Assembly (NCBI RefSeq): GCF_900101785.1
Contig: NZ_LT629688.1
Location: 1,922,001 to 1,986,000, forward strand
Direction of reading: 5' to 3'
Source of the DNA: Auraticoccus monumenti
GTDB lineage: Bacteria; Actinomycetota; Actinomycetes; Propionibacteriales; Propionibacteriaceae
DNA: 64,000 nucleotides
Shown one piece after another: positions 6,442-50,828 of this stretch. Under the pieces are notes generated by a model. It was not told the origin of the DNA, did not search any database, and was given only the letters and a program-made list of their open reading frames with translations. Position 1 is the stretch's first letter. Every line of letters starts with the position of its first letter. A program made the position numbers and the translations under genes.

Positions 6442-8340
6442 GTGGCGACCGACGACGCACCGACCGGAGGTGGCCTCGCCGCGGCGGTGGCCGCCCTCCC
6501 GCGGGACAGCACCCGTTCCCCGCGGACGGGGTGGACCCGTCAGCACCACGAGCAGGTGGCCGACCGGTCGCTGCTGGCGCTGCGGCGCTGGGCCAGCCCG
6601 GGGCGGGGCCGGATCGACCTGCCGGGCCCGGCCTCGCGGGCCGGCCGGGCCAGTGACGGGCTGGAGGGCTTCGCCCGCTCCTTCATGGCGGCCGGCTTCC
6701 GCCTCGCCGGCTCGACGGCCGACCCCCACGACCACGCCGGCTTCTACGCCGCCGGTCTGGCGGCCGGCTCCGACCCCTCGGCCCCGGACCGCTGGCCCAC
6801 GCTGACGGAGACCCCGCAGGCCCGGGTCGAGGCGGCGGCGGTGGCCATCGCGCTGCACGAGTCCCGGGCCCAGGTCTGGGACCACCTCGACCCCGGGGTG
6901 CAGGAGCGGGTGGTGGAGTGGCTGGCCGGCTCCCTCGGAGCCCGCTACGGGGACAGCAACTGGCGCTGGTTCCAGAACGTCACCCAGGCCTTCCTCCGCT
7001 CGGTCGGTGGTCCCTGGGACGCGGCTGAGGTCGAGGCGAACCTGGACTTCCTCGACGGCTGCTACCTGGGTGAGGGCTGGTACAGCGACGGCCGCCCGGA
7101 CGGCCGCTCGGGCAACGTGGACTGGTACAACCCGTGGGTGATGCAGCTCTTCCCGCTGTGGTGGTGCCGCATCCTCGGTGCGGACGCGCCCGTGGACCGG
7201 CTGGAGGTCTACCGCCGCCGGATGGCGGACCTGCTGCCGGACCTGGTCGGGCTCTTCGGGGTCGACGGCGCCCCGCTCTTCCAGGGCCGCTCGCTGGTGT
7301 ACCGCTTCGCCACCACCGGCGCGCTCTGGGCCGGTCCGGTCTTCGGGCTCGACGCCGTCGCCCCGGGCCGGGTGCGCGAGGTGGGGAGCGCGACCCTGCG
7401 CCACTTCGTCGAGCACGGCGCCTACGACGAGCACGACCTGCTCAGCCTCGGCTGGTTCGGGCGCCACGAGCCGATGCGCCAGCCCTACTCCGGACCGGGC
7501 TCGCCCTACTGGTCGAGCCTCGGGTTCGCCGGGCTGGTGCTGCCGGCCGAGCACCCGGTGTGGAGCGACCCCGAGCCCGACGGGGCCCCGGCCGAGGTGA
7601 CGACACCGGTGTGGCCGGTGGGCTGGCTGGTGGGGCAGCACCGCGACGGCATCGTCCGGGTGGTCAACCACGGCGTGGACCACTCCGGCGCCGATCCCGG
7701 TCCCGAGGACCCGATGTACTGCCGGCTGGCCTACTCCACAGCCACCGGGCCGGTCCCCAGCAGCCCCCTGCCCGGGCTGGCTCCGGTCGACAACCTGGCC
7801 GCGCTGCGGGGCGGGCAGGGCCGCTGGTCGCAGCGACGTCCGCTCGAGCTGACCGGCGTCGACGGTCGGCAGGCCTCGAGCGAGCACCGTGTGGTCTACC
7901 TCGGCGCCGACGGCGAGCTCGAACCGGTCGGCGGGGGAGCCGTGCTGCAGACCTGGTCGGTCCTCCGTGGACCGGTCGAGGTGCGTCTGGTCCGGCTCCG
8001 CGCCGACGAGGGCCCGCTCGCCGAGCCGGCCGCCCTGGTGCTGTCGGGCTGGGCGACCCCGACCCGTGACGTCGTCCGGGCACCCGCGGTGAGCGCGGTC
8101 GTCCCGCTGATGGGCGGCCTGCGGACCGGGGAGTCGGTGCACGAGGAGGAGAACCCCTTCGGGTCCGCGCTCCGCGTGCCCTGGGCGGAGACCTCCGCAC
8201 CGGTGCGGCCCGGCGACGTCCACGCCGTCGCGGTGGTGCTCGCCGAGGAGGAACCCGAGCTGCCCGAGCTGCTGCTGCAGGACGGGGTGGCCGAGGTGCG
8301 CTGGCCCGACGGCGAGCGCGACGTCGTCGACCTGACCTGA
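6442..8340 (+). CDS. DUF2264 family protein
   Basis: A 632-aa protein starting at GTG 6442 behind GAGGAGGA. The first ~400 residues match the DUF2264 pattern as I know it: DGLEGFARSF near residue 75, the NWRWFQN segment near residue 175, NVDWYNPWVMQLFPLWW near residue 230, and GRSLVYRF near residue 285. These resemble the helical toroid of polysaccharide lyase or heparinase-like proteins. The remainder looks beta-rich. No signal peptide is evident, so it is probably cytoplasmic. DUF2264 genes commonly sit in plant-glycan utilisation loci with LplB/YtcP importers; the biochemical activity is not established to my knowledge. It ends the operon. Confidence 0.82.
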   Translation: MATDDAPTGGGLAAAVAALPRDSTRSPRTGWTRQHHEQVADRSLLALRRWASPGRGRIDLPGPASRAGRASDGLEGFARSFMAAGFRLAGSTADPHDHAGFYAAGLAAGSDPSAPDRWPTLTETPQARVEAAAVAIALHESRAQVWDHLDPGVQERVVEWLAGSLGARYGDSNWRWFQNVTQAFLRSVGGPWDAAEVEANLDFLDGCYLGEGWYSDGRPDGRSGNVDWYNPWVMQLFPLWWCRILGADAPVDRLEVYRRRMADLLPDLVGLFGVDGAPLFQGRSLVYRFATTGALWAGPVFGLDAVAPGRVREVGSATLRHFVEHGAYDEHDLLSLGWFGRHEPMRQPYSGPGSPYWSSLGFAGLVLPAEHPVWSDPEPDGAPAEVTTPVWPVGWLVGQHRDGIVRVVNHGVDHSGADPGPEDPMYCRLAYSTATGPVPSSPLPGLAPVDNLAALRGGQGRWSQRRPLELTGVDGRQASSEHRVVYLGADGELEPVGGGAVLQTWSVLRGPVEVRLVRLRADEGPLAEPAALVLSGWATPTRDVVRAPAVSAVVPLMGGLRTGESVHEEENPFGSALRVPWAETSAPVRPGDVHAVAVVLAEEEPELPELLLQDGVAEVRWPDGERDVVDLT

Positions 8341-8416
8341 CCCGACCCGAGCGCACCCTTTCCGCCGCGCCCGCGCGCCGGCCTCCGCCCCTTGCTCCGT
8401 GAACCAACCCCGCGCG

Positions 8417-8490
8417 GCCCGGCGCGGCCCGATGCCGCCCGGCCCGGCCCGATGCCGCCCGGCCCGGCCCGATGCCGCCCGGCCCGGCCC
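8417..8490. repeat. 20-bp GC-rich tandem repeat (about 3.5 units)
   Basis: The unit GGCCCGGCCCGATGCCGCCC recurs with a 20-bp period from about 8421, immediately downstream of the DUF2264 gene and before the larger array at 8557. It lies in non-coding DNA. No function is evident. Confidence 0.75.
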
Positions 8491-8556
8491 GGCGCGATCG
8501 CGTCCCCGTGCCGCGGCCCGGCGCGACGCGATCGCGTCCCCGCTCGCCTCCCACGT

Positions 8557-9045
8557 CGCCCCGTCTACGAGCACCTCGCCCCCTCTATAGGCGGGGCAAA
8601 GTCACCGTAGACGGGGCGAGGTGCGGGATGGTGCTGTCCGTCAGACGTAGCCCCGCCTACGGGTACGTAGGTGGGGCAATGTCGCCGTGGTGCGGGCGCG
8701 ATGAGCTGGCGCAGCGGGCCGCTAACCACGTAGCCCCGCCTGCGGGCACGTCGCCCCTTCTATAGACGGGGCAGAGTCGCCGTAGGTGGGGCAATGTCGC
8801 CGTGGTGCGGCGCGAGGAGCTGGCACAGCGGCTACCCACCACGTAGCCCCGCCTGCGGGCACGTCGCCCCTTCTATAGACGGGGCGGAGTCGCCGTAGGT
8901 GGGGCAATGTCGCCGGGGTGCGGGCGCGATGAGCTGGCGCAGCGGGCCGCTAACCACGTAGCCCCGCCTACGGGTACCTCGCCCCTTCTATAGACGGGGC
9001 AGAGTCGCCGTAGGCGGGGCGAAGTCGCCGGGGTGTGGGCGCTAT
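8557..9045. repeat. Intergenic tandem array of ~114-bp units made of nested inverted repeats
   Basis: The 746-bp gap between converging genes (8341-9086) has no convincing gene and is filled by repeats. The marker ACGTAGCCCCGCCT recurs at 8645, 8728, 8841 and 8956, giving spacings of 83, 113 and 115 bp. Each full unit carries GCCCC and GGGGC arms around TTCTATAGAC or CTCTATAGGC, then GTAGGTGGGGCAATGTCGCC. At the left end, CGCCCCGTCTACG (8557-8569) is perfectly inverted at 8606-8618. A clearly related ~70-bp copy lies at 50758-50828. The element could be a REP/MITE-like non-autonomous repeat or a structured RNA; it encodes nothing recognisable. Confidence 0.85.
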
Positions 9046-9086
9046 GAGCCGGAGGGAGGGCCCGGGGTGCGGTACGGACGGGCGGG

Positions 9087-10868
9087 TCAGCCGACGGGTG
9101 GGACCAGGACGGCGGGCTCGGGGCGGTGGACGCCCCGGGGGCGGTAGCCGAGGACGCCGGACAGGCCGACCAGGTCGGCCAGCAACCAGATCACTGCCGA
9201 CCACATCTCGGTGCCCTGCAGCCCGGGCACGGTGGCGGGGAGCCCGCGGGTGCTGGGGTGCGGGGCCTGGAAGCCGAAGCCCTCGTGGTCGGTCCAGTGA
9301 CCCAGCGCGTCGCCGAGCAGCCGGGTGGCGAGCGCGACCACCTCCTCGCGACGGTGCGTGGTCTGCTTCCCGGCCAGCCAGAGCGGGTGGGCGACGTCGA
9401 GGACGTTGCAGGCGTTCTGGCGCTCGGGGTCGAACCAGCGCGGGTCCGAGGCGTGGGCGAGGGTGGTGTCGACGACCCGGTCCGGGTGCGGCAGCGGGAG
9501 CCCGAACTGGGCGTACGTGCCGCGGGAGGCCCGGTAGAAGCCGTTCACCACCTGGAGCATGCCCTCGGTGCCGTCGGGGGAACCCCACATGCCGGTACGG
9601 CGATCCGCGCGCACGTGCATCCACCCCATCACCGTGGCCAGCTGGGTCTCCGCGCCCGGGACGCCGCGGGGGACGTCCCAGCGGAGCGCGGTGCCGACCG
9701 TGTCGATCCAGGCCCCGGAGCCCCAGACCCGGCCGTGCCAGGTCAGCTGCTCCAGCTTCTCCACCAGGTCGGTGCCGGACCTCCCGGTGAACGCGGTCAC
9801 CGGGTGCGGGAAGCCGCTGCCCAGTACGTCCAGGGCGTAGCCGACGCAGAGCACGTGGTAGGCGGCGGTGCCGTCGTGCCAGTCCGGCGGGGTGGTGGAC
9901 GGGCGTCCGGTCCCGTCGAGCTCGGCCACCAGACCGGTGCCGGCGTCCTGCCAGCCGGCGAGCCGCTCGCCCTGGACGTCGGCCGGGAGCTGGGAGGGCG
10001 CGGCAGCCAGGAAGAGGTCGGCGATCTCGATCGCGTCGCACTGGGCCCGCACGGAGGGGCGGGCGCCCGGGCGGTCGACGAACTGCCCGTCCGGCAGCGA
10101 GGGGTCCCAGCTCCGGTCGAGCACCTGCGGCACCTGCTCGCGGGCCCGCTCCACGAAGGCGGCCAGCCGCTCGGTCAGGTCGGACCCGGCGGCCGCGGCG
10201 GCGGGAGGACGTCCGGTGGCGGCACCGTCGGCCGGTGGCACCCGCCAGCGCAGCACCCTCGCGGGGTTGCCGCCGACGACCGCACCGGCGGGGACGTCCT
10301 TGGTGACCACCGCGCCGGCCGCGAGCATCGCCTTGTCCCCGACCGTCACCCCGTCCAGCACCACCACGTGGGACCCGATCCAGACGTCGTCGCCGATGGT
10401 GATGCCGCGGCTGGTGATGGGCTGGCGGAAGACCTCCAGGTCGGGGTCGGTCATGGTGTGGTTGAAGGCCAGCAGCGAGGTGTGGGCGCCGATCCGGACG
10501 CCGTCGCCGAGGGTGATCCGGCCGCGCACCACCGTGAAGGCGTTGATCGTGCAGTCCCGTCCGGCCCGCACCTCGTCGGTCAGGTAGGCGTGGGCGGCCA
10601 CGTAGCTGCGGTCACCCAGCTCCAGCACCTGCGCCTGGACCGAGGCCTGCTCGCTGATGAACACGCGCTCGCCCAGCGACCAGCCCGGGTGGGTGGCCAG
10701 CACCTCGGCCTGCAGCTCCAGCTGGGCGCGACGGGCGTCCTCGTCGGCGTGGCGCCAGAACTCCCACGGGGAGTAGTCGAAGTGCTGCACGTCGAAGGCG
10801 TGCGTGCGTGGGACCTCCGGCTGCGGGCGGTCGGGGGTGGGGTCGGTGATCGTCTCGGTGACAGCCAT
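9087..10868 (-). CDS. Hexapeptide-repeat acyltransferase fused to a large helical (toroid-like) domain
   Basis: A 593-aa two-domain protein. ATG 10868 is chosen, with GTG 10880 possible. Residues ~50-215 form a left-handed beta-helix acetyltransferase: repeats such as VRIGAHTSL, ITIGDDVWIGSHVVVLDGVTVG and AGAVVTKDVPAGAVVGGNPA are the maltose/galactoside O-acetyltransferase signature, with the likely catalytic His in FNHTMTD. From ~230 to the end is a mostly helical region (WHDGTAAYHVLCVGYALD, NACNVLDVAHPLWLAGKQT) resembling alpha/alpha-toroid proteins, which I cannot name. A GCAAGGGCTTGC palindrome upstream (10929-10940) resembles the LacI operators near 2.6 kb, suggesting co-regulation with the importer. 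The substrate is unknown. Confidence 0.8.
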   Translation of the reverse strand: MAVTETITDPTPDRPQPEVPRTHAFDVQHFDYSPWEFWRHADEDARRAQLELQAEVLATHPGWSLGERVFISEQASVQAQVLELGDRSYVAAHAYLTDEVRAGRDCTINAFTVVRGRITLGDGVRIGAHTSLLAFNHTMTDPDLEVFRQPITSRGITIGDDVWIGSHVVVLDGVTVGDKAMLAAGAVVTKDVPAGAVVGGNPARVLRWRVPPADGAATGRPPAAAAAGSDLTERLAAFVERAREQVPQVLDRSWDPSLPDGQFVDRPGARPSVRAQCDAIEIADLFLAAAPSQLPADVQGERLAGWQDAGTGLVAELDGTGRPSTTPPDWHDGTAAYHVLCVGYALDVLGSGFPHPVTAFTGRSGTDLVEKLEQLTWHGRVWGSGAWIDTVGTALRWDVPRGVPGAETQLATVMGWMHVRADRRTGMWGSPDGTEGMLQVVNGFYRASRGTYAQFGLPLPHPDRVVDTTLAHASDPRWFDPERQNACNVLDVAHPLWLAGKQTTHRREEVVALATRLLGDALGHWTDHEGFGFQAPHPSTRGLPATVPGLQGTEMWSAVIWLLADLVGLSGVLGYRPRGVHRPEPAVLVPPVG

Positions 10869-10916
10869 GTCGGCGAGCACGTCCTCTCGGTGGCGGTGCT
10901 CCCATCCTCGCCGCGC

Positions 10917-20662: not shown

Positions 20663-23609
20663 ATGCGGCACCGCCGTCTCCCCCTGCTCGCCCTCGCCCT
20701 CGCCCTCGGCGCAGGGCTCACCTTCACCACGCTGGACCCCGCGGTCGCCTCACCAGGGCAGGAGGTGACCACCCCGACGACGGAGGACCTGCCGGCGCTG
20801 GCGCAGTCGCTGGTCGGCGACGGCGTCGCGGTGAGCAACGTGAGGTACACCGGTGCGGCAGCGGCGATCGGACGCTTCACCGGCATGGAAGCGGCCGTGG
20901 GCATCGACGAGGGCGTCGTGCTGGCCAGCGGGCAGGCCAGCAGCTCGATCCTCGGACCGAACAACGACTCGGCGCAGGACGTCCCCAACAACCCAGGCGA
21001 CCCCGCCCTGACCCTCCTCAGCGGACGGACCACCTACGACGCGGCCATCCTCGAGTTCGACTTCGTCCCGCAGGCCGACGCGGTGACCTTCGACTACATC
21101 TTCGGCTCGGAGGAGTACTTCCCGGGGTCGGGCGGCGAGACCCCGTACAACGACGTGTTCGCGTTCTTCGTGAACGGGCAGAACTGCGCCACCGTCGGAG
21201 ACCGGCCCGTGTCGATCAGCTCGATCAACGAGCGGACCAACGCCGAGCTGTTCAAGGCCAACTACTTCGGCAGCAGCGCCTACGACACGCAGCTCAACGG
21301 CTTCACCACCATCCTGAGGTGCAGCGCGTCGGTCCGGGGCGGCCAGACCAACAGCCTGCGGATGGCGATCGCCGACGCCGGTGACAGCATCGTGAACTCC
21401 GCGGTGATGCTGCGAGCCGGCTCCCTGGTCTCCAACGACCCGCCGACCGCCGAGCCGCGGGACCTCACCACCGGTTTCCGCGAGCCCGTCGGCGTGACCC
21501 TGGCCGGGGCCGACCCCGACGGCAACGAGGTGACCTACCGGATCACCCAGCCCCCCACCGGCGGCACCCTCTCCGGCACCGCGCCGGACCTCACCTTCAC
21601 CCCCGACGACGAGTTCGCCGGCACCGCCACGTTCCAGTACGTGACCAACGACGGCACCTTCGACTCCGAGCCCGCGACGGTCACCATCGAGGTGGTCGAC
21701 GACCTGCGCCCGGTGGCCGACCCCGTCACCGTGACCACCGGCTTCGAGGAGCCGGTGGACGTCGAGCTCAGGGGCAGCGACCCCGAGGAGCAGGACCTGA
21801 CCTTCCAGGTCACCTCGCAGCCGACCGGCGGGACGCTGAGCGGCACCGCCCCGGAGCTGCTCTTCACCCCCGACGAGCTCTTCAGCGGGTCCACCTCCTT
21901 CACCTACACCGTCTCCGACGGCGTCCGCACCTCCGAGCCGGCGACGGTCGCCATCACCGTGGCCTCCAACGAGGGGCCCACCGCCGAGGCGCAGTCCCTG
22001 AGCACCGGCTTCGAGGAGCCGCTTCCCCTGACCCTCAGCGGGAGCGACCCCGAGAACCAGCCGCTCAGCTACGAGGTGGACGACGTGGTCGGCGGCACGC
22101 TGACCGGCACCGCCGGCCCTGGTCTTCACCCCCGACGAGCTGTTCAGCGGCACCGCCTCGTTCAGCTTCACCGTCTCCGACGGCCGCTTCACCTCCGAGC
22201 CGGCCGAGGTCACCATCGAGGTGGCGCCCAACCTGCCGCCGACGGCGGAGGACCTGTCCCTGCGCACCGGGTTCGAGGAGCCTGTCGAGCTCACGCTCGC
22301 GGGCACCGACCCGGAGGGCCGGACGCTGACCTACGACGTGGACGACGTGGTGGGTGGCACCGTCTCCGGCACCGCGCCGGAGCTGGTCTTCACCCCCGAC
22401 GAGCTGTTCAGCGGTGAGGCCTCCTTCAGCTACACCGTCTCCGACGGCCGCTTCACCTCCGAGCCCGCCGACGTGACCATCGACGTCGCCGTCAACCTGC
22501 CGCCCACGGCCGACGACATCGAGCTGGCCACGGAGTTCGAGACCCCGGTCGAGGTCGACCTCTCCGGCACCGACCCCGAGGGTCTCCCGCTGACCTTCGA
22601 CGTCGGCACGGTGGTCGGCGGCACCGTCAGCGGGACGGCCCCGGACCTGGTGTTCACCCCCGACGAGCGCTTCGGCGGCACCGCCTCCATCAGCTACACC
22701 GTCTCCGACGGGCGCTTCACCTCCGAGACGGCCACGGTGACCATCGAGGTGGGCCGCAACGAGCCGCCGACCGCCGCCGACCTGCGGCTGGCCACCGGTT
22801 TCGAGACCCCGGTCGGCTTCACGCTGCCCGGTGAGGACCCCGAGGGCGTCCCGCTGCAGTGGGCCCTGGTCGGCGAGCCGGCGGGCGGGAGCCTGTCCGA
22901 GACCGACGAGTCGCCCCGCAACGAGGGTCTGACCGAGGAGGAGCGGGACGCGCTGCCCCCGGTCACCGGCGGCGGCTGGTTCGACCTCGTGTTCACCCCC
23001 GACGAGCTGTTCAGCGGGGAGGCCTCCTTCAGCTACGTCGTGTTCGACGGCCGCTTCGTCTCCGAGCCGGCGACGGTGACCGTCGACGTGGCCGGGAACG
23101 CGGTCCCGGTGGCCGACGACCTCGACGTGACCACCTCCGCCGCGACGCCGGTGGACCTGCCGCTGACCGGTAGCGACCCGGAGGGGCGGCCCTTGACCTT
23201 CGAGGTGACGTCCTCTCCCGAGGGCGGCGCCCTGAGCGGCACCGCGCCGGAGCTGGTCTTCACCCCCGAGGACGGGTTCAGCGGCGAGGCCACCTTCGAG
23301 TTCACCGTGGACGACGGTCGCTTCACCTCCGAGGCAGCCACCGTCACGATCACCGTCGAGGCCGCCGCGGTCGAGCCCACGCCGGCCCCGGTCGAGCCCA
23401 GCCCGGTCCCGGTCGAGCCCAGCCCGGTCCCGGTCGAGCCCACGCCGGCCCCGGTCGAGCCGGGTCCGACCGAGCCGGCCCCGGTCCCCGGGGTGGACGA
23501 CCGGCTGCCGGACACCGGTGGGCTCGACGTCGCCGCGCTCGTGGTGGGCCTCGGCCTGCTGACCACCGGTGCGACCGTGCTGCTCAGCCGGGCCCGCCGG
23601 CGCGACTGA
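20663..23609 (+). CDS. LPDTG-anchored surface protein: choice-of-anchor-L domain plus Ig/cadherin-like repeats, with a frameshift
   Basis: From ATG 20663 a signal peptide (PLLALALALGAGLTFTTL) leads into a choice-of-anchor-L domain with FDFVPQADAVTFDYIFGSEE and YNDVFAFFVNG. Seven or so ~95-residue repeats follow, each with GTAP-LVFTPDELFSG and SYTVSDGRFTSEPATVTI. A VEP/PVP-rich spacer then leads to the sorting signal LPDTG (23505-23519), a hydrophobic helix and RARRRD. The reading frame breaks at about 22112-22118 inside one repeat: GTA is followed by out-of-frame sequence, while the next frame resumes ALVFTPDELFSG. Loss of two C/G bases would explain it. It would be ~980 aa if intact, and is probably covalently attached to peptidoglycan. 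Either a sequencing slip or a real disruption is possible. Confidence 0.85.
23370..23474 (+). repeat. 21-bp tandem repeat encoding a VEPxPxP spacer
   Basis: Units starting at 23370, 23391, 23412, 23433 and 23454 repeat GTCGAGCCC plus a variable GCC/CCG tail. They encode a proline/glutamate-rich wall-spanning spacer just before the LPDTG signal. Confidence 0.85.
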
Positions 23610-44816: not shown

Positions 44817-46415
44817 ATGCCGGGCCACGTGTGCACGCCCACGGGGGAGAGGTCCATCCCTTCCCCGGTGCTCGTGCACGCGGTCCTGCTGACCGTGGGC
44901 CTGCTCGCGGTCCTGCTGCTCTGGACGACCGGCGCCACCAGCGCCCGGGCCGAGGAGAAGGACGGGTCGGGCACCGTCGGGGGCGTCCTCGGGGCGGTCG
45001 GGAAGACCGCGGAGGCCACCACGAGCACCGTCACCGACACGGTCCGGGAGACGGTGTCCACGGTGCAGAAGACCACCCAGCCGGCTCCGGCCAAGCCCGC
45101 TCCCGCTCCGGTGAAGCCCGCTCCCGCCAAGCCCGCACCGGCGAAGCCCGCGCCCGCGAAGCCGGCACCCGCGAAGCCGGCACCCGCGAAGCCGGCACCC
45201 GCGAAGCCGGCTTCTGCCAAGCCCGCACCGGCGAAGCCCGCACCTGCCAAGCCCGCACCGGCGAAGCCCGCACCTGCCAAGCCCGCACCGGCGAAGCCCG
45301 CACCCGCCAAGCCGGCCCCGGCGAAGCCGGTCCCCGCGGAGTCCGCCCCCGCGGAGAGCGAGCCCGCACCGACGAAGAGCCAGCCCGCTCCCGCGCCGAC
45401 CGACCGGGCTCCGGCGGACGACGCCACCGACGACCAGCCCCGCAGCGACGTCGACCGACCCACCCCGACCACCGGACTGGTGGGCGGGCTGCTGGACAAG
45501 GTCGAGGACACCACCGACACCCTCCTGACCACCGTCTCCGACGACGTGCTGCCGCCGGTGCTGGACGGTCTCCCCGCCCGTGCCGACGGGCTCGGGGACG
45601 AGCTGGACCGTGACGTCCTGACCCCCGTGCTCGGAACCGTCGACACGACCGTCGACGGTGCGCTGAGCGTCGTGCGACCGGTCACGGACGAGGTAGACAC
45701 AGTGGTGGACCGGGTCGACGGCGTGGTGAGCGAGGTGGTGACCGACGGCGGCGAGCTGGTCGACGGCGTCGTCGGCGGCTCGCCCGTGCTGCTGCCTCCG
45801 CTCTCCCCGCTGCTCCCGCTCCCTCCGCTGGCCCCGCTCTCCCCGCAGCCGCCGCTGGCCCCGCTGCCTCCCGCTCCCGACGCGCTACCCGCCCAGGGCC
45901 CGTCGGCGCCGTCGCGCCCCGGCGTCCCACCGGGTGACCCGCGCCCCGACGGCGAGGAGCTGGTTGCCGCCCCTGCTGCGGCGCGCCCTCTGTCGGACCC
46001 CCGTCCCGGTGCCGTGGCGCCGGACGACGCCGGCACGACGTCCAGAAGCTCCGTCCCTGGTGCCGTCGTGACCGCCCGCGCGTCAGGACCCCTCCAAGGG
46101 TTCTCCGCCGCCGGTCCCGCTGGTGCCCCCGCGGCTCTCACCGGCTCCCCCGCGGGTGCCGACGCGCTGGGCGTGCCGGTGGCGTCCGGCTCCACCACGG
46201 CGACCTCCGAGGCTCCCGCGCCCCAGCCGGCTCCCGGCGAGCCGGCCGCGGCGAGCGGTGCCCAGAGCGCCGGGTCCGCAGCTGGTGCCGACCAGCCCGT
46301 CGCCGGGCTGCAGGACTCCGACCTCACCCGCGCCGTCGCCGGCGCCGGTTCACCGCACGGCCCGGCGGGTGTCTCCCGCGTCCGGGCCGACCTCCCCACG
46401 CATTCCCCCGACTGA
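44817..46415 (+). CDS. Secreted low-complexity protein with PAKPA repeats
   Basis: A 532-aa protein from ATG 44817, six bases after TATCGT (44805-44810). A signal or membrane segment (VLVHAVLLTVGLLAVLLLW) is followed by about 18 near-perfect AKPAP pentapeptides (roughly residues 92-175). Then come a D/T/V-rich segment (LVGGLLDKVEDTTDTLLTTVSDDVL type) and P/L- and A/P/G-rich stretches. It ends HSPD without a sorting signal. Lys-Pro-Ala repeats are typical of cell-wall-spanning or adhesive regions. The middle section resembles a repeated amphipathic V-D-T pattern. No enzyme domain is visible. It is probably co-expressed with the next gene, 90 bp away. Confidence 0.8.
   Translation: MPGHVCTPTGERSIPSPVLVHAVLLTVGLLAVLLLWTTGATSARAEEKDGSGTVGGVLGAVGKTAEATTSTVTDTVRETVSTVQKTTQPAPAKPAPAPVKPAPAKPAPAKPAPAKPAPAKPAPAKPAPAKPASAKPAPAKPAPAKPAPAKPAPAKPAPAKPAPAKPAPAKPVPAESAPAESEPAPTKSQPAPAPTDRAPADDATDDQPRSDVDRPTPTTGLVGGLLDKVEDTTDTLLTTVSDDVLPPVLDGLPARADGLGDELDRDVLTPVLGTVDTTVDGALSVVRPVTDEVDTVVDRVDGVVSEVVTDGGELVDGVVGGSPVLLPPLSPLLPLPPLAPLSPQPPLAPLPPAPDALPAQGPSAPSRPGVPPGDPRPDGEELVAAPAAARPLSDPRPGAVAPDDAGTTSRSSVPGAVVTARASGPLQGFSAAGPAGAPAALTGSPAGADALGVPVASGSTTATSEAPAPQPAPGEPAAASGAQSAGSAAGADQPVAGLQDSDLTRAVAGAGSPHGPAGVSRVRADLPTHSPD
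45089..45335 (+). repeat. 15-bp tandem repeat encoding PAKPA units
   Basis: About 17 units of the type CACCCGCGAAGCCGG or CACCGGCGAAGCCCG run with a 15-bp period. Some stretches form a 30-bp higher-order repeat with CACCTGCCAAGCCCG. It lies wholly within the coding sequence and probably expands or contracts by slippage. Confidence 0.85.
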
Positions 46416-46505: not shown

Positions 46506-48737
46506 ATGTCCACATGGAGAATGAGAGTCGTGGGTGGAGCGGCCTGCGGGCTGGGTCTGCTCACCCTGGGGTGGGGGACGGCCTGGGCCGACACCTCCGA
46601 CGACCCCGGTGACAGCGCGGTCGTGTCAGTCGACCTGGGAGGTTCGTCCTCCGGTGACGGCGGGGCCCGCGGAGGGTCGCTCGCCGACGTCGAGGTCGAC
46701 GTCGAGGTGACCGAGGCGGAGGTCCGCGCCGACGCCGAGGTGAGCACCCAGCAGTCCGAGCCGGTCGTCGAGGTGCAGGTGGAGGTCGAGGCGGCACCCG
46801 AGCCCGCGCCGGCTCCCGAGCCAGCCCCCGAGCCCGCACCGGTGGTGCAGGTCGAGGTCGAGGTCGAGCCGGTGGTCCGGGTCGAGGCCGAGGTGGCCGA
46901 GCCCGCGCAGCGCGAGCCGGTGGCCGAGGTCGAGGCCGACGGCGAGGTCGTCGACCGTGAGGAGGACACCCAGCCGGTCGCCGAGGTGGAGGCCGACGGG
47001 GAGGTGGCCGACGGCAGCACCGAGGAGGCTCCCGCCGAGGAGCCCGCCCCCCACCGTGACGTCGAGGCCGACGTCGACGTGGAGGTGGTCCTCGACGAGG
47101 ACGGCCTGGACGTCTGCGTGGACGCCGCCGTGCTGGGTTCGGCGAGCTGCGACGACGCGGCGCCGGGCGCCCCGAGTGACGGCGGCTCCCCGGAGACCGA
47201 CGTGGACGTCGACGCCGAGGTGGTCCCCGCCGACGGCGACCAGCCGGTGGTGGACGCCGACCTCGAGGCCGGGCTGGACGAGGACGGTCTGGACCTGTGC
47301 CTGGACGCAGCCGTGCTGGGCACCGCCGCCTGCGGTGGTGACGTCCCCGCGGACGGCACCCCCGGTGACGGCACGTCCGGGAGTCAGCCGGTGACCGAGG
47401 TGGACGCCGACGTCGTGGTCGGCGGTGGGTCCACCGACGGTGGCACGACCGGGGGTGACCCGCTCGTGGACGGTGACGTCGACGTGGTGCTGGACGAGGA
47501 CGGTCTGGACCTGTGCGTGGACGCAGCGGTGCTGGGCACCGCTGCCTGTGGTGGTGACGTCCCCGCGGACGGCGCCCCTGGTGACGGCACGTCGGGTGGC
47601 GACCCGGTGGTCGACGTGGGCACCGACGTGGTGGTCGACGGTGACCAGGGCGCGATCGACGTCTGCCTGGACGCCGGGCTGCTGACCTCCGTCTCGTGCG
47701 GTGGGGGCGGCGCCGGTGGTGGGGCCACCGGAGGCGACCCCGTGGTCGACGGTGACGTCGACGTGGTCCTGGACGAGGACGGTCTGGTGCTGTGCGTGGA
47801 CGCGGCCGTGCTGGGCGCCGCCGAGTGCGGCGGCCCCCCCGGCGACGGCAGCTCCGGCGGCCAGCCGGTGGTCGACCTCGACACCGACCTGGACGTCGAC
47901 CTCGGTGAGCCGGGTGTGGACGCGTGCGTCTCCGCCGGGGTGCTGGGTGGGGCCACGGACTGTGGTGGTCCTGGTGCCGGGACCGGCGGCGGTGACCCCG
48001 TCGTCGACGTCGACGCCGACGTCGAGGTGGATCTCGGTGAGCCGGGTGTGGACGCCTGCGTCTCCGCCGGCCTGCTGGGACCGGCCACCGGGTGCGGTGG
48101 ACCCGGGAGCGGGAACGGCGGCGGCGACCCGGTGGTCGACGTCGTGACCGAGGTCGACGTCGACCTCGGTGGACCCGGCGTGGACGTCTGCGTCTCGGCC
48201 GGTGTCCTCGGTCCGGCCATCGGCTGCGGTGAGCCCACCGACCCGACCGACCCGGGCACCGACCCGACCGACCCGACGGACCCGGGCACCGACCCGACCG
48301 ACCCGACGGACCCGGGCACCGACCCGACCGACCCGGGCACCGACCCGACCGACCCGGGCACGGACCCGACCGACCCGGGCACGGACCCGACCGACCCCGG
48401 CACGGACCCGAGCCAGCCGGGCACCGACCCGACCCGTCCGGTCGACGGCGGTGACGGGGGCGCGCCCACCGGTGTCGCCGGCCCCGGCCCCTCCGGCGTG
48501 GCCGGTCCGGGTGCCTCCGGCCCCGTGCCGGTGGTGATCCCGGTCCAGCTCGTCTCCTCACCGGAGGCCCCGGCGGCCAGCACGGTCACCTCGGGCTCGC
48601 CCGCCGCACCCAGCGGTGGCGACGAGCGGCTGGCCAGCACGGGCTCCTCGGACGGCCTGGCCCTGCTGCTCCTGCTGGGGCTGATGGCCACCACGCTCGG
48701 CGGCACGGCGCTGCGGCGCAGGGTCCGCTCGAGCTGA
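46506..48737 (+). CDS. Acidic repeat surface protein with LASTG sorting signal
   Basis: A 743-aa exported protein behind AAGGAG (46490-46495). The signal peptide ends near GWGTAWADTS. The body is strongly acidic. First come VEVEV/EPAPEPAP stretches, then about five cassettes like DVVLDEDGLDLCVDAAVLGTA with paired cysteines (CVDAAVLG...AACGG). Three DLGEPGVDACVSAGVLG cassettes and a DPTDPGT spacer follow. The C-terminus has LASTG, a hydrophobic helix and RRRVRSS: the LAxTG form recognised by class E sortases. The regular Cys pairs suggest a disulfide in each cassette. It is probably a wall-bound, calcium-binding-like acidic coat protein; this is inference. No sortase gene is in the window. Confidence 0.82.
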   Translation: MSTWRMRVVGGAACGLGLLTLGWGTAWADTSDDPGDSAVVSVDLGGSSSGDGGARGGSLADVEVDVEVTEAEVRADAEVSTQQSEPVVEVQVEVEAAPEPAPAPEPAPEPAPVVQVEVEVEPVVRVEAEVAEPAQREPVAEVEADGEVVDREEDTQPVAEVEADGEVADGSTEEAPAEEPAPHRDVEADVDVEVVLDEDGLDVCVDAAVLGSASCDDAAPGAPSDGGSPETDVDVDAEVVPADGDQPVVDADLEAGLDEDGLDLCLDAAVLGTAACGGDVPADGTPGDGTSGSQPVTEVDADVVVGGGSTDGGTTGGDPLVDGDVDVVLDEDGLDLCVDAAVLGTAACGGDVPADGAPGDGTSGGDPVVDVGTDVVVDGDQGAIDVCLDAGLLTSVSCGGGGAGGGATGGDPVVDGDVDVVLDEDGLVLCVDAAVLGAAECGGPPGDGSSGGQPVVDLDTDLDVDLGEPGVDACVSAGVLGGATDCGGPGAGTGGGDPVVDVDADVEVDLGEPGVDACVSAGLLGPATGCGGPGSGNGGGDPVVDVVTEVDVDLGGPGVDVCVSAGVLGPAIGCGEPTDPTDPGTDPTDPTDPGTDPTDPTDPGTDPTDPGTDPTDPGTDPTDPGTDPTDPGTDPSQPGTDPTRPVDGGDGGAPTGVAGPGPSGVAGPGASGPVPVVIPVQLVSSPEAPAASTVTSGSPAAPSGGDERLASTGSSDGLALLLLLGLMATTLGGTALRRRVRSS
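48235..48432 (+). repeat. Tandem repeats encoding a DPTDPGT spacer
   Basis: GACCCGACCGACCCGGGCAC-type units repeat about ten times. They encode the spacer before the LASTG signal. Confidence 0.85.
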
Positions 48738-50757: not shown

Positions 50758-50828
50758 TGCCCCGTCTTCGGGTTCATCGCCCCCTCTGTAGAAGGGGCGA
50801 AGTGCTCGCAAGTGGGGCAACGTGGGGA
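50758..50828. repeat. Dispersed copy of the 8.56-kb repeat element
   Basis: TGCCCCGTCTTCGGGTTCATCGCCCCCTCTGTAGAAGGGGCGAAGTG-type sequence aligns over ~70 bp with 8557-8627, sharing the GCCCCGTCT-CG, TCGCCCCCTCT-TAG, GGGGC-AAGT and GGGGC blocks. It lies in the 316-bp gap between the DinB-like gene and sppA, which otherwise holds the 10-bp GC repeat and the sppA promoter. Confidence 0.75.

Follow-up and report, generated by a model that had tools for sequence, protein, structure and literature searches.

The tandem array of inverted repeats that lies between two convergent genes of Auraticoccus monumenti is probably a group of sites at which a protein whose gene lies elsewhere in the genome binds duplex DNA, and these sites appear to form a dispersed population that is tied to this gene and spreads by cutting and repair; we place the probability of this reading at about 0.6. 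The tie between the repeats and a putative nuclease gene is established, at the level of sequence comparison, by the dispersed population of the repeats, their position on the flanks of the gene, the recurrence of this arrangement and the lineage-specific pairing of repeat and protein. The window referred to below is the whole stretch of 64,000 nucleotides that was analysed, corresponding to positions 1922001-1986000 of the single contig (C1) of the 4.46 Mb genome, here denoted G000.

The Repeat Array

The array had been described in the original prediction as four copies of ACGTAGCCCCGCCT with spacings of 83, 113 and 115 bp, and a renewed search of the window gave exactly this result, with copies at 8645, 8728, 8841 and 8956 and none elsewhere on the + strand. 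Each copy had also been assigned facing GCCCC/GGGGC arms around a TATAGA or TATAGG centre, which is correct for those at 8728, 8841 and 8956 and incorrect for that at 8645, which is truncated and carries no TATAG centre; the remaining full element starts before it, at 8558, and has a diverged outer arm. Exact arm and TATAG centres occur in the window at 8578, 8753, 8866 and 8981, together with a one-mismatch centre at 50779. When both strands of the window were searched for this pattern with up to 3 mismatches, 11 matches were obtained, compared with a mean of 3.2 and a maximum of 9 for shuffled sequences, none of which (0/100) yielded 11 or more.

The underlying element is a 60-bp tetrad, GCCCC-N15-GCCCC-N10-GGGGC-N15-GGGGC, built of four copies of a 20-bp unit in the arrangement <- <- -> -> around a common centre. 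Four full tetrads are present in the array and a fifth, at 50759-50818, is the relative which had been reported 42 kb away. The features, none of which is assigned to a strand, are as follows:

8343..9061, block absent in the congener G001, 719 bp by blastn gap (blastn gap and alignment)
8558..8617, tetrad 1, cores GCCCC, GCCCC, GGGGC and GGGGC, centre TATAGG (exact match)
8645..8681, truncated element, left core 8650-8654 and right core 8673-8677, no TATAG centre (by reading)
8666..9049, tandem duplication, period 113-115 bp, of tetrads and flanking DNA (Tandem Repeats Finder and spacings)
8733..8792, tetrad 2 (exact match)
8846..8905, tetrad 3 (exact match)
8961..9020, tetrad 4 (exact match)
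50759..50818, solo tetrad in a gap flanked by two genes on the + strand (pattern match, position read)

The segment 8645-8668 served as the reference copy of dispersed-repeat family D4 in the repeat search. Tandem Repeats Finder assigned to the array a period of 115 bp, 3.4 copies and a score of 635, a unit of about 114 bp having been proposed earlier, and the gap is indeed convergent, being bordered by a DUF2264 gene (6442-8340, +) and a hexapeptide-repeat gene (9087-10880, -). A CRISPR array, dismissed already at the outset, is ruled out, the repeats being inverted tetrads and the DNA between them being duplicated along with them. Rfam gave no match at gathering score within the window.

A Dispersed Family in the Genome and Its Relatives

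Searching the whole of G000 at 0-1 mismatch revealed 27 tetrads, 23 of them exact, and none for the reversed-pattern control; at up to 3 mismatches there were 38 as against 19 for the reversed pattern. These counts, like the tandem array score of 635, speak against a chance origin. By our own grouping they fall into 16 clusters, including one more diverged place at 1.412 Mb, so that the family is dispersed, as had been proposed from its two locations, and more widely than was then noted. Several clusters carry extra right-facing units in 20-bp steps, for example at 1081772-1081991 (L037, 5173-5392), where about a dozen consecutive right-facing 20-bp units are seen. Among the clusters viewed by eye, extensions are apparently right-sided.

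Classified by gap type, 10 clusters lie in codirectional, 5 in convergent and 1 in divergent gaps, compared with a background of 50 codirectional, 15 convergent and 31 divergent gaps (31/96) of at least 100 bp in the fetched G000 regions, which overlap such that some gaps were counted twice, the types being those given by a purpose-written gene caller that missed the nuclease gene in L190/L195. Elsewhere, divergent gaps hold 1 of the 19 places in two genomes described below (G008 and G155) and account for 1 of the 9 gaps in Microlunatus speluncae (G131, family Propionibacteriaceae).

Further copies were sought among relatives. In 198 genomes of the family, the tetrad was found at up to 1 mismatch 27 times in G000, 9 times in G131 and once, at a chance-like place, in each of two genomes, while the reversed-pattern control gave one match each in two others. 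Among 391 genomes sampled from the order, a sample which did not include G131, G000 and the same two singles matched, and 7 genomes had one control match. A blastn search of 37 relatives yielded, besides own copies, one short match in each of four genomes with E-values of 0.001-0.01.

Comparison with a Congener

The congener G001 carries no tetrads at up to 1 mismatch and no homologues of the nuclease at an E-value of 1e-10. When 15 G000 loci were compared with 1.12 Mb of G001, 4 aligned beside the cluster, and a fifth, L037, aligned over 393 bp only, far from its cluster. These 4 comprise two clear empty sites, one different neighbour and one contig break. At the counterpart of the array gap, the two convergent genes of G001 are about 30 bp apart, and at 3.759 Mb about 670 bp are absent beyond a terminator-like hairpin which, by eye, is kept in both species. 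For the tetrad at 50.76 kb, G001 has none at the matching place and also lacks the neighbouring gene, while at the nuclease locus it shows what we read as Rhs-like sequence and a contig break. Two G001 segments (L229, 17960-19390, and L230, 1-3210), repeat-rich and Rhs-like by the same reading, lie at this contig break, opposite the nuclease gene and repeats that adjoin the Cpn60 gene in G000.

Neither of the two empty G001 sites showed an evident target-site duplication, and absence in G001 could also be the result of loss. The suggestion of a non-autonomous mobile element was right in part: the copies are lineage-specific relative to G001, but the gene that they flank in G000 encodes an AbiEi-like/Vsr-like protein instead of a RAYT, and PF01797 has no match in that genome. 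Only one close copy of the nuclease-type gene occurs in G000, the second match being only 31% identical.

The Partner Gene and Its Protein

The gene G000:C1:2090293-2091252, which lies outside the window, 159 kb from the array and next to a Cpn60 gene, encodes a protein of 320 aa and is bracketed by three elements, two of them upstream (2089976 and 2090151) and one overlapping its 3' end (2091223). Its G131 homologue, 44% identical to the G000 protein, also has elements on both sides, some of them with 2 mismatches.

Pfam matches of the 320-aa protein were sub-threshold, with AbiEi_4 at 22.4 bits (cut-off 25) and AbiEi_1 weaker, and NCBIfam gave none, while PADLOC returned several AbiEi models, the best at 6.8e-15. 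An AlphaFold2 model with a mean pLDDT of 91 was matched by Foldseek to AbiEi (6y8q, E 1.9e-5) and, weakly, to nucleases (3r3p, E 0.32, TM 0.68 by target). VIA-align, used to re-align Foldseek's own matches only, gave Z 11.3 for AbiEi 6y8q, Z 11.1 for I-Bth0305I (3r3p, 97/97 residues, 2.5 A), Z 10.1 for 3hrl and Z 9.9 for Vsr (1cw0), the nuclease matches being clear by this measure. From the model, the protein is predicted to consist of an AbiEi-antitoxin-like part joined to a Vsr/I-Bth0305I-like nuclease fold. The label DUF559, usual in annotation, was rejected; as Pfam DUF559 is not listed for the protein at E 1, the nuclease domain is described by its fold.

Residues invariant in 22 aligned homologues include E197, Q215, D230, E241, D243, G244, K247, Y248, E265, R268 and E269, and the motif ExDGxxKY is invariant in the same set; the acidic and lysine residues among them are candidate catalytic residues. 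No toxin family was present among the four neighbours scanned at two loci, which were Cpn60 and a family-less ORF in G000, and in G131 an HTH protein together with a hydrolase. Nor was a recent duplicate of the gene seen, the identity of other homologues being 31% in G000 and no higher than 53% in G131. A pattern search of viral contigs picked out 20 candidate stretches, none of which was confirmed as a relative.

Recurrence of the Gene-Repeat Pairing

Homologue loci were drawn from 57 relatives (37 matched, 30 loci kept), from G131 (5 matches) and from GTDB genomes (the best 80 of 448 confirmed), and we take the 80 GTDB loci to belong to actinobacterial genera. Side-to-side flank scores of at least 45, the control 99th percentile, were found for 83/112 homologue loci as against 6/348 outward-shifted control pairs, in a set which retains at least one duplicate (a segment of L073 is also within L114); 29 loci fell below 45 and 14 of those were under 34. 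Palindromes exceeded the control 99th percentile in 143/224 flanks compared with 3/215 in the control. Moreover, of 151 palindromes scoring at least 14 and extending over at least 50 bp, 88 contained an internal direct repeat at a 9-of-12 cut, with a lag of 19 or 20 in 77 of them. Loci L106, L109 and L151, which repeat G131 loci, were omitted from the flank and cross-locus tests. Under a between-locus control, 31/35 loci were above the 99th percentile in the first set and 35/77 in the second, where the shifted control gave 0/71; the low second value arises because close relatives with common repeats raise the between-locus bar. For L104 and L105, homologues which carry an MTES_1575/DUF559-type nuclease instead, side-to-side scores were 23 and 53 and palindrome scores 7, 7, 11 and 14, two loci being too few for a control.

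The flanking cores vary between loci and include GCTAC, TGCATG, GCGGCAGTT and others, and in G131 three close homologues have three different flanking repeats. Repeats match across loci mainly where the proteins are at least 60-70% identical: the matching fraction rises with protein identity, from 0.00 (to two decimals) of the 1,196 pairs sampled at 30-50% and 0.03 of 709 at 50-55%, through 0.07 of 257 at 55-60% and 0.23 of 175 at 60-70%, to 0.63 of 41 at 70-80% and 0.80 of 10 above 80%; L084, L104 and L105 were also omitted here, and 8 of the 109 proteins carry X at internal stops. An exception to this lineage pairing is the GCCCC core common to G000 and G131 at 44% protein identity. The flanks of L183 gave very high scores against many loci at 51-59% protein identity, perhaps because a second homologue is present or because the gene end was set wrongly.

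A second family could be followed in two genomes of one genus. GCTAC tetrads occur at 10 places in G008 and 9 in G155, and at none in 18 other genomes or in the controls, and in both genomes the nuclease gene lies between two of them. Of the 10 places in G008, 8 could be compared and have a G155 counterpart at the matching site, one recognised by one-sided synteny and two altered by indels, so that movement is rare. The differences between elements of the two genomes are indels, in many cases comprising entire 20-bp units, and in six orthologous pairs the cores are 99% alike and other positions 73% (64% for paralogues), core conservation being due in part to selection, as the elements were collected by their cores. 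Between the nucleases of G008 and G155, identity is 73% and dN/dS about 0.11, with a dS near 1.8, which is saturated.

Duplex Motif or Hairpin

Arm pairing summed over variable pairs was 16.56, 14.86 and 13.61 in families of 27, 14 and 18 copies, respectively, compared with 16.25, 15.80 and 14.69 after shuffling, and single positions deviated slightly from expectation, both ways. Given this lack of arm covariation, what is conserved looks like a duplex motif and not a hairpin, and the palindrome looks like a consequence of inverted copies of the unit motif, as in duplex binding sites. One strand can fold, with a z of -4.2 relative to shuffles using DNA energies; despite this, the earlier suggestion of an RNA-structured element is disfavoured, the arms being no more complementary than shuffled ones in all three families. 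A protein-binding array, also suggested earlier, is the best reading of these data. As described in PMC7319586, AbiEi-type proteins attach to their own promoters at inverted repeats, of which AbiEi binds two and Rv2827c four of 23 bp.

Comparison with Known Systems

The closest likeness is to REPtrons which, as described in PMC3116915 and PMC3733652, have palindromic intergenic repeats on both sides of the enzyme gene, an arrangement found here at the majority of loci (83/112, against 6/348 in the control). Further shared features are that every paralogue of the enzyme has its own repeat family, that solo copies are dispersed, that tandem clusters comprise flanking DNA as well, and that gaps downstream of genes are preferred. 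REPtrons differ in that the enzyme here is AbiEi plus Vsr-like by predicted fold and not HUH/Y1, PF01797 giving no match in G000 or G131. There is no conserved GTAG (or CGTC) tag; many G000 units have GTAG/GCAG before the core, with the base before the A variable, and other lineages carry other cores. Moreover, hairpin pairing is not conserved, and the units are 20-bp direct repeats within a four-core tetrad. The CGTC REPs are also dispersed palindromes apparently without a dedicated transposase (PMC3733652), but they are short tagged hairpins, and Actinobacteria are unmentioned in the main text of that paper.

The AbiE type IV toxin-antitoxin systems share the AbiEi fold of the N-terminal part (6y8q, Z 11.3) and possibly, by analogy with the two inverted repeats of AbiEi and four of Rv2827c (PMC7319586), a logic of binding. 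In contrast to AbiE, the protein has an extra nuclease-fold domain, no DUF1814 nucleotidyltransferase toxin gene occurs among the four neighbours at two loci, and the repeats, besides being dispersed, occur on both sides of the gene. Vsr and I-Bth0305I resemble the nuclease domain in fold (1cw0, Z 9.9; 3r3p, Z 11.1), weakly so by Foldseek E-value, whereas here the domain is joined to an AbiEi-like module and carries the invariant ExDGxxKY motif, and no relative was confirmed among the 20 candidate stretches of viral contigs.

Alternative Explanations

The elements could act solely as regulatory or nucleoid sites, with an AbiEi-like regulator whose C-terminal domain is inactive, the upstream element as its operator and the dispersed elements as its other targets. 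This would accord with the ability of AbiEi-type proteins to bind their own promoters at inverted repeats (PMC7319586), with the conservation of a motif without arm covariation, with the stability of orthologous sites between G008 and G155 and with the existence of FASTKD4, a Vsr-fold protein without nuclease activity (PMC11879112). We nevertheless consider it unlikely, since divergent gaps are mostly avoided (1/16 clusters in G000, 1/19 places in G008/G155 and 1/9 gaps in G131 against 31/96 in the background), the element at the opposite end of the gene is not accounted for, acidic and lysine residues show no variation among 22 homologues, and whole blocks have been gained or lost between G000 and G001. 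We give rather little credence to a homing parasite, in which the repeats spread by other means and the gene encodes a homing endonuclease that settled between older repeats: repeat similarity follows the protein lineage and the three close homologues of G131 have three different flanking repeats, both unlike a late settler, even though I-Bth0305I is the best nuclease match of the domain and the presumed targets flank the gene.

A function as RNA or single-strand hairpins, whether bidirectional terminators, 3'-end stabilisers or REPIN-like hairpins, appears very improbable. Arm covariation is absent in three families, terminator and promoter scans of 8300-9150 gave no site, and at 3.759 Mb the array lies, by eye, beyond the terminator-like hairpin kept in both species; against this stand the folding of a single strand better than shuffles (z -4.2) and the location of copies mostly outside divergent gaps. 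Ordinary transposon remnants or RAYT-driven REPs, with an unrelated nuclease, can practically be discounted. Clustered, dispersed intergenic palindromes do resemble REPs (PMC3733652), and PF01797 matches do occur, 2 in G008 and 1 in G155, but no GCTAC tetrad (up to 4 mismatches) lies within about 1.5 kb of these three genes, whereas the nuclease gene has them, and PF01797 has no matches in G000 or G131, which rules out a RAYT as the agent in G000.

Proposed Mechanism and Its Implications

The preferred reading is a REPtron-like system with an unrelated enzyme, and we infer that it spreads by binding, cutting and recombination. The AbiEi-like N-terminal part would bind the 20-bp units in the manner of AbiEi and Rv2827c at their inverted repeats, and the C-terminal domain with the Vsr/I-Bth0305I fold would introduce a nick or a cut in the DNA, either within the bound element or close to it. 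Repair that draws on another copy would in turn propagate the elements, make them uniform and extend them by 20-bp units, and could carry the gene along where elements flank it. More tentatively, at somewhat below an even chance, the family may represent a widespread actinobacterial class, selfish or domesticated, in which an AbiEi-like/Vsr-type fusion maintains and spreads lineage-specific tetrads by cutting and recombination, the REPIN-RAYT arrangement having been reached a second time with unrelated chemistry.

To our knowledge, many bacterial interspersed palindromes have no enzyme assigned to them, and the sole well-described repeat-enzyme pairing that we know of is that of REP and RAYT. 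A search of the open literature gave among the matches listed no description linking such repeats to this protein. As far as found, the pairing is apparently new, neither enzyme nor repeat belonging to the known REP-RAYT pairing, although the arrangement itself resembles the known one. If the reading is true, the repeat-enzyme arrangement arose more than once and a function is provided for a large group of unnamed AbiEi-like proteins. These would be diverse, presumably sequence-specific nucleases, with candidate target sites readable beside their genes, and the spread and upkeep of dispersed repeats would become testable.

Other Repetitive Sequences

Beside the array, and within the block absent from the congener, region 8408-8542 carries GC-rich tandem repeats of 10/20 bp (GCCCGGCCCGGCCCGATGCC) as well as a 29-bp pair. 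Further long tandem repeats, possibly coding, occur in the window at 21559-22805 (period 264), 45102-45353 (15/30) and 47855-48434 (132/21 bp). A predicted protein adjoining a repeat cluster (L044, 5542-6195), acetyltransferase-like by reading, carries a long low-complexity AGAGAGSM insert.
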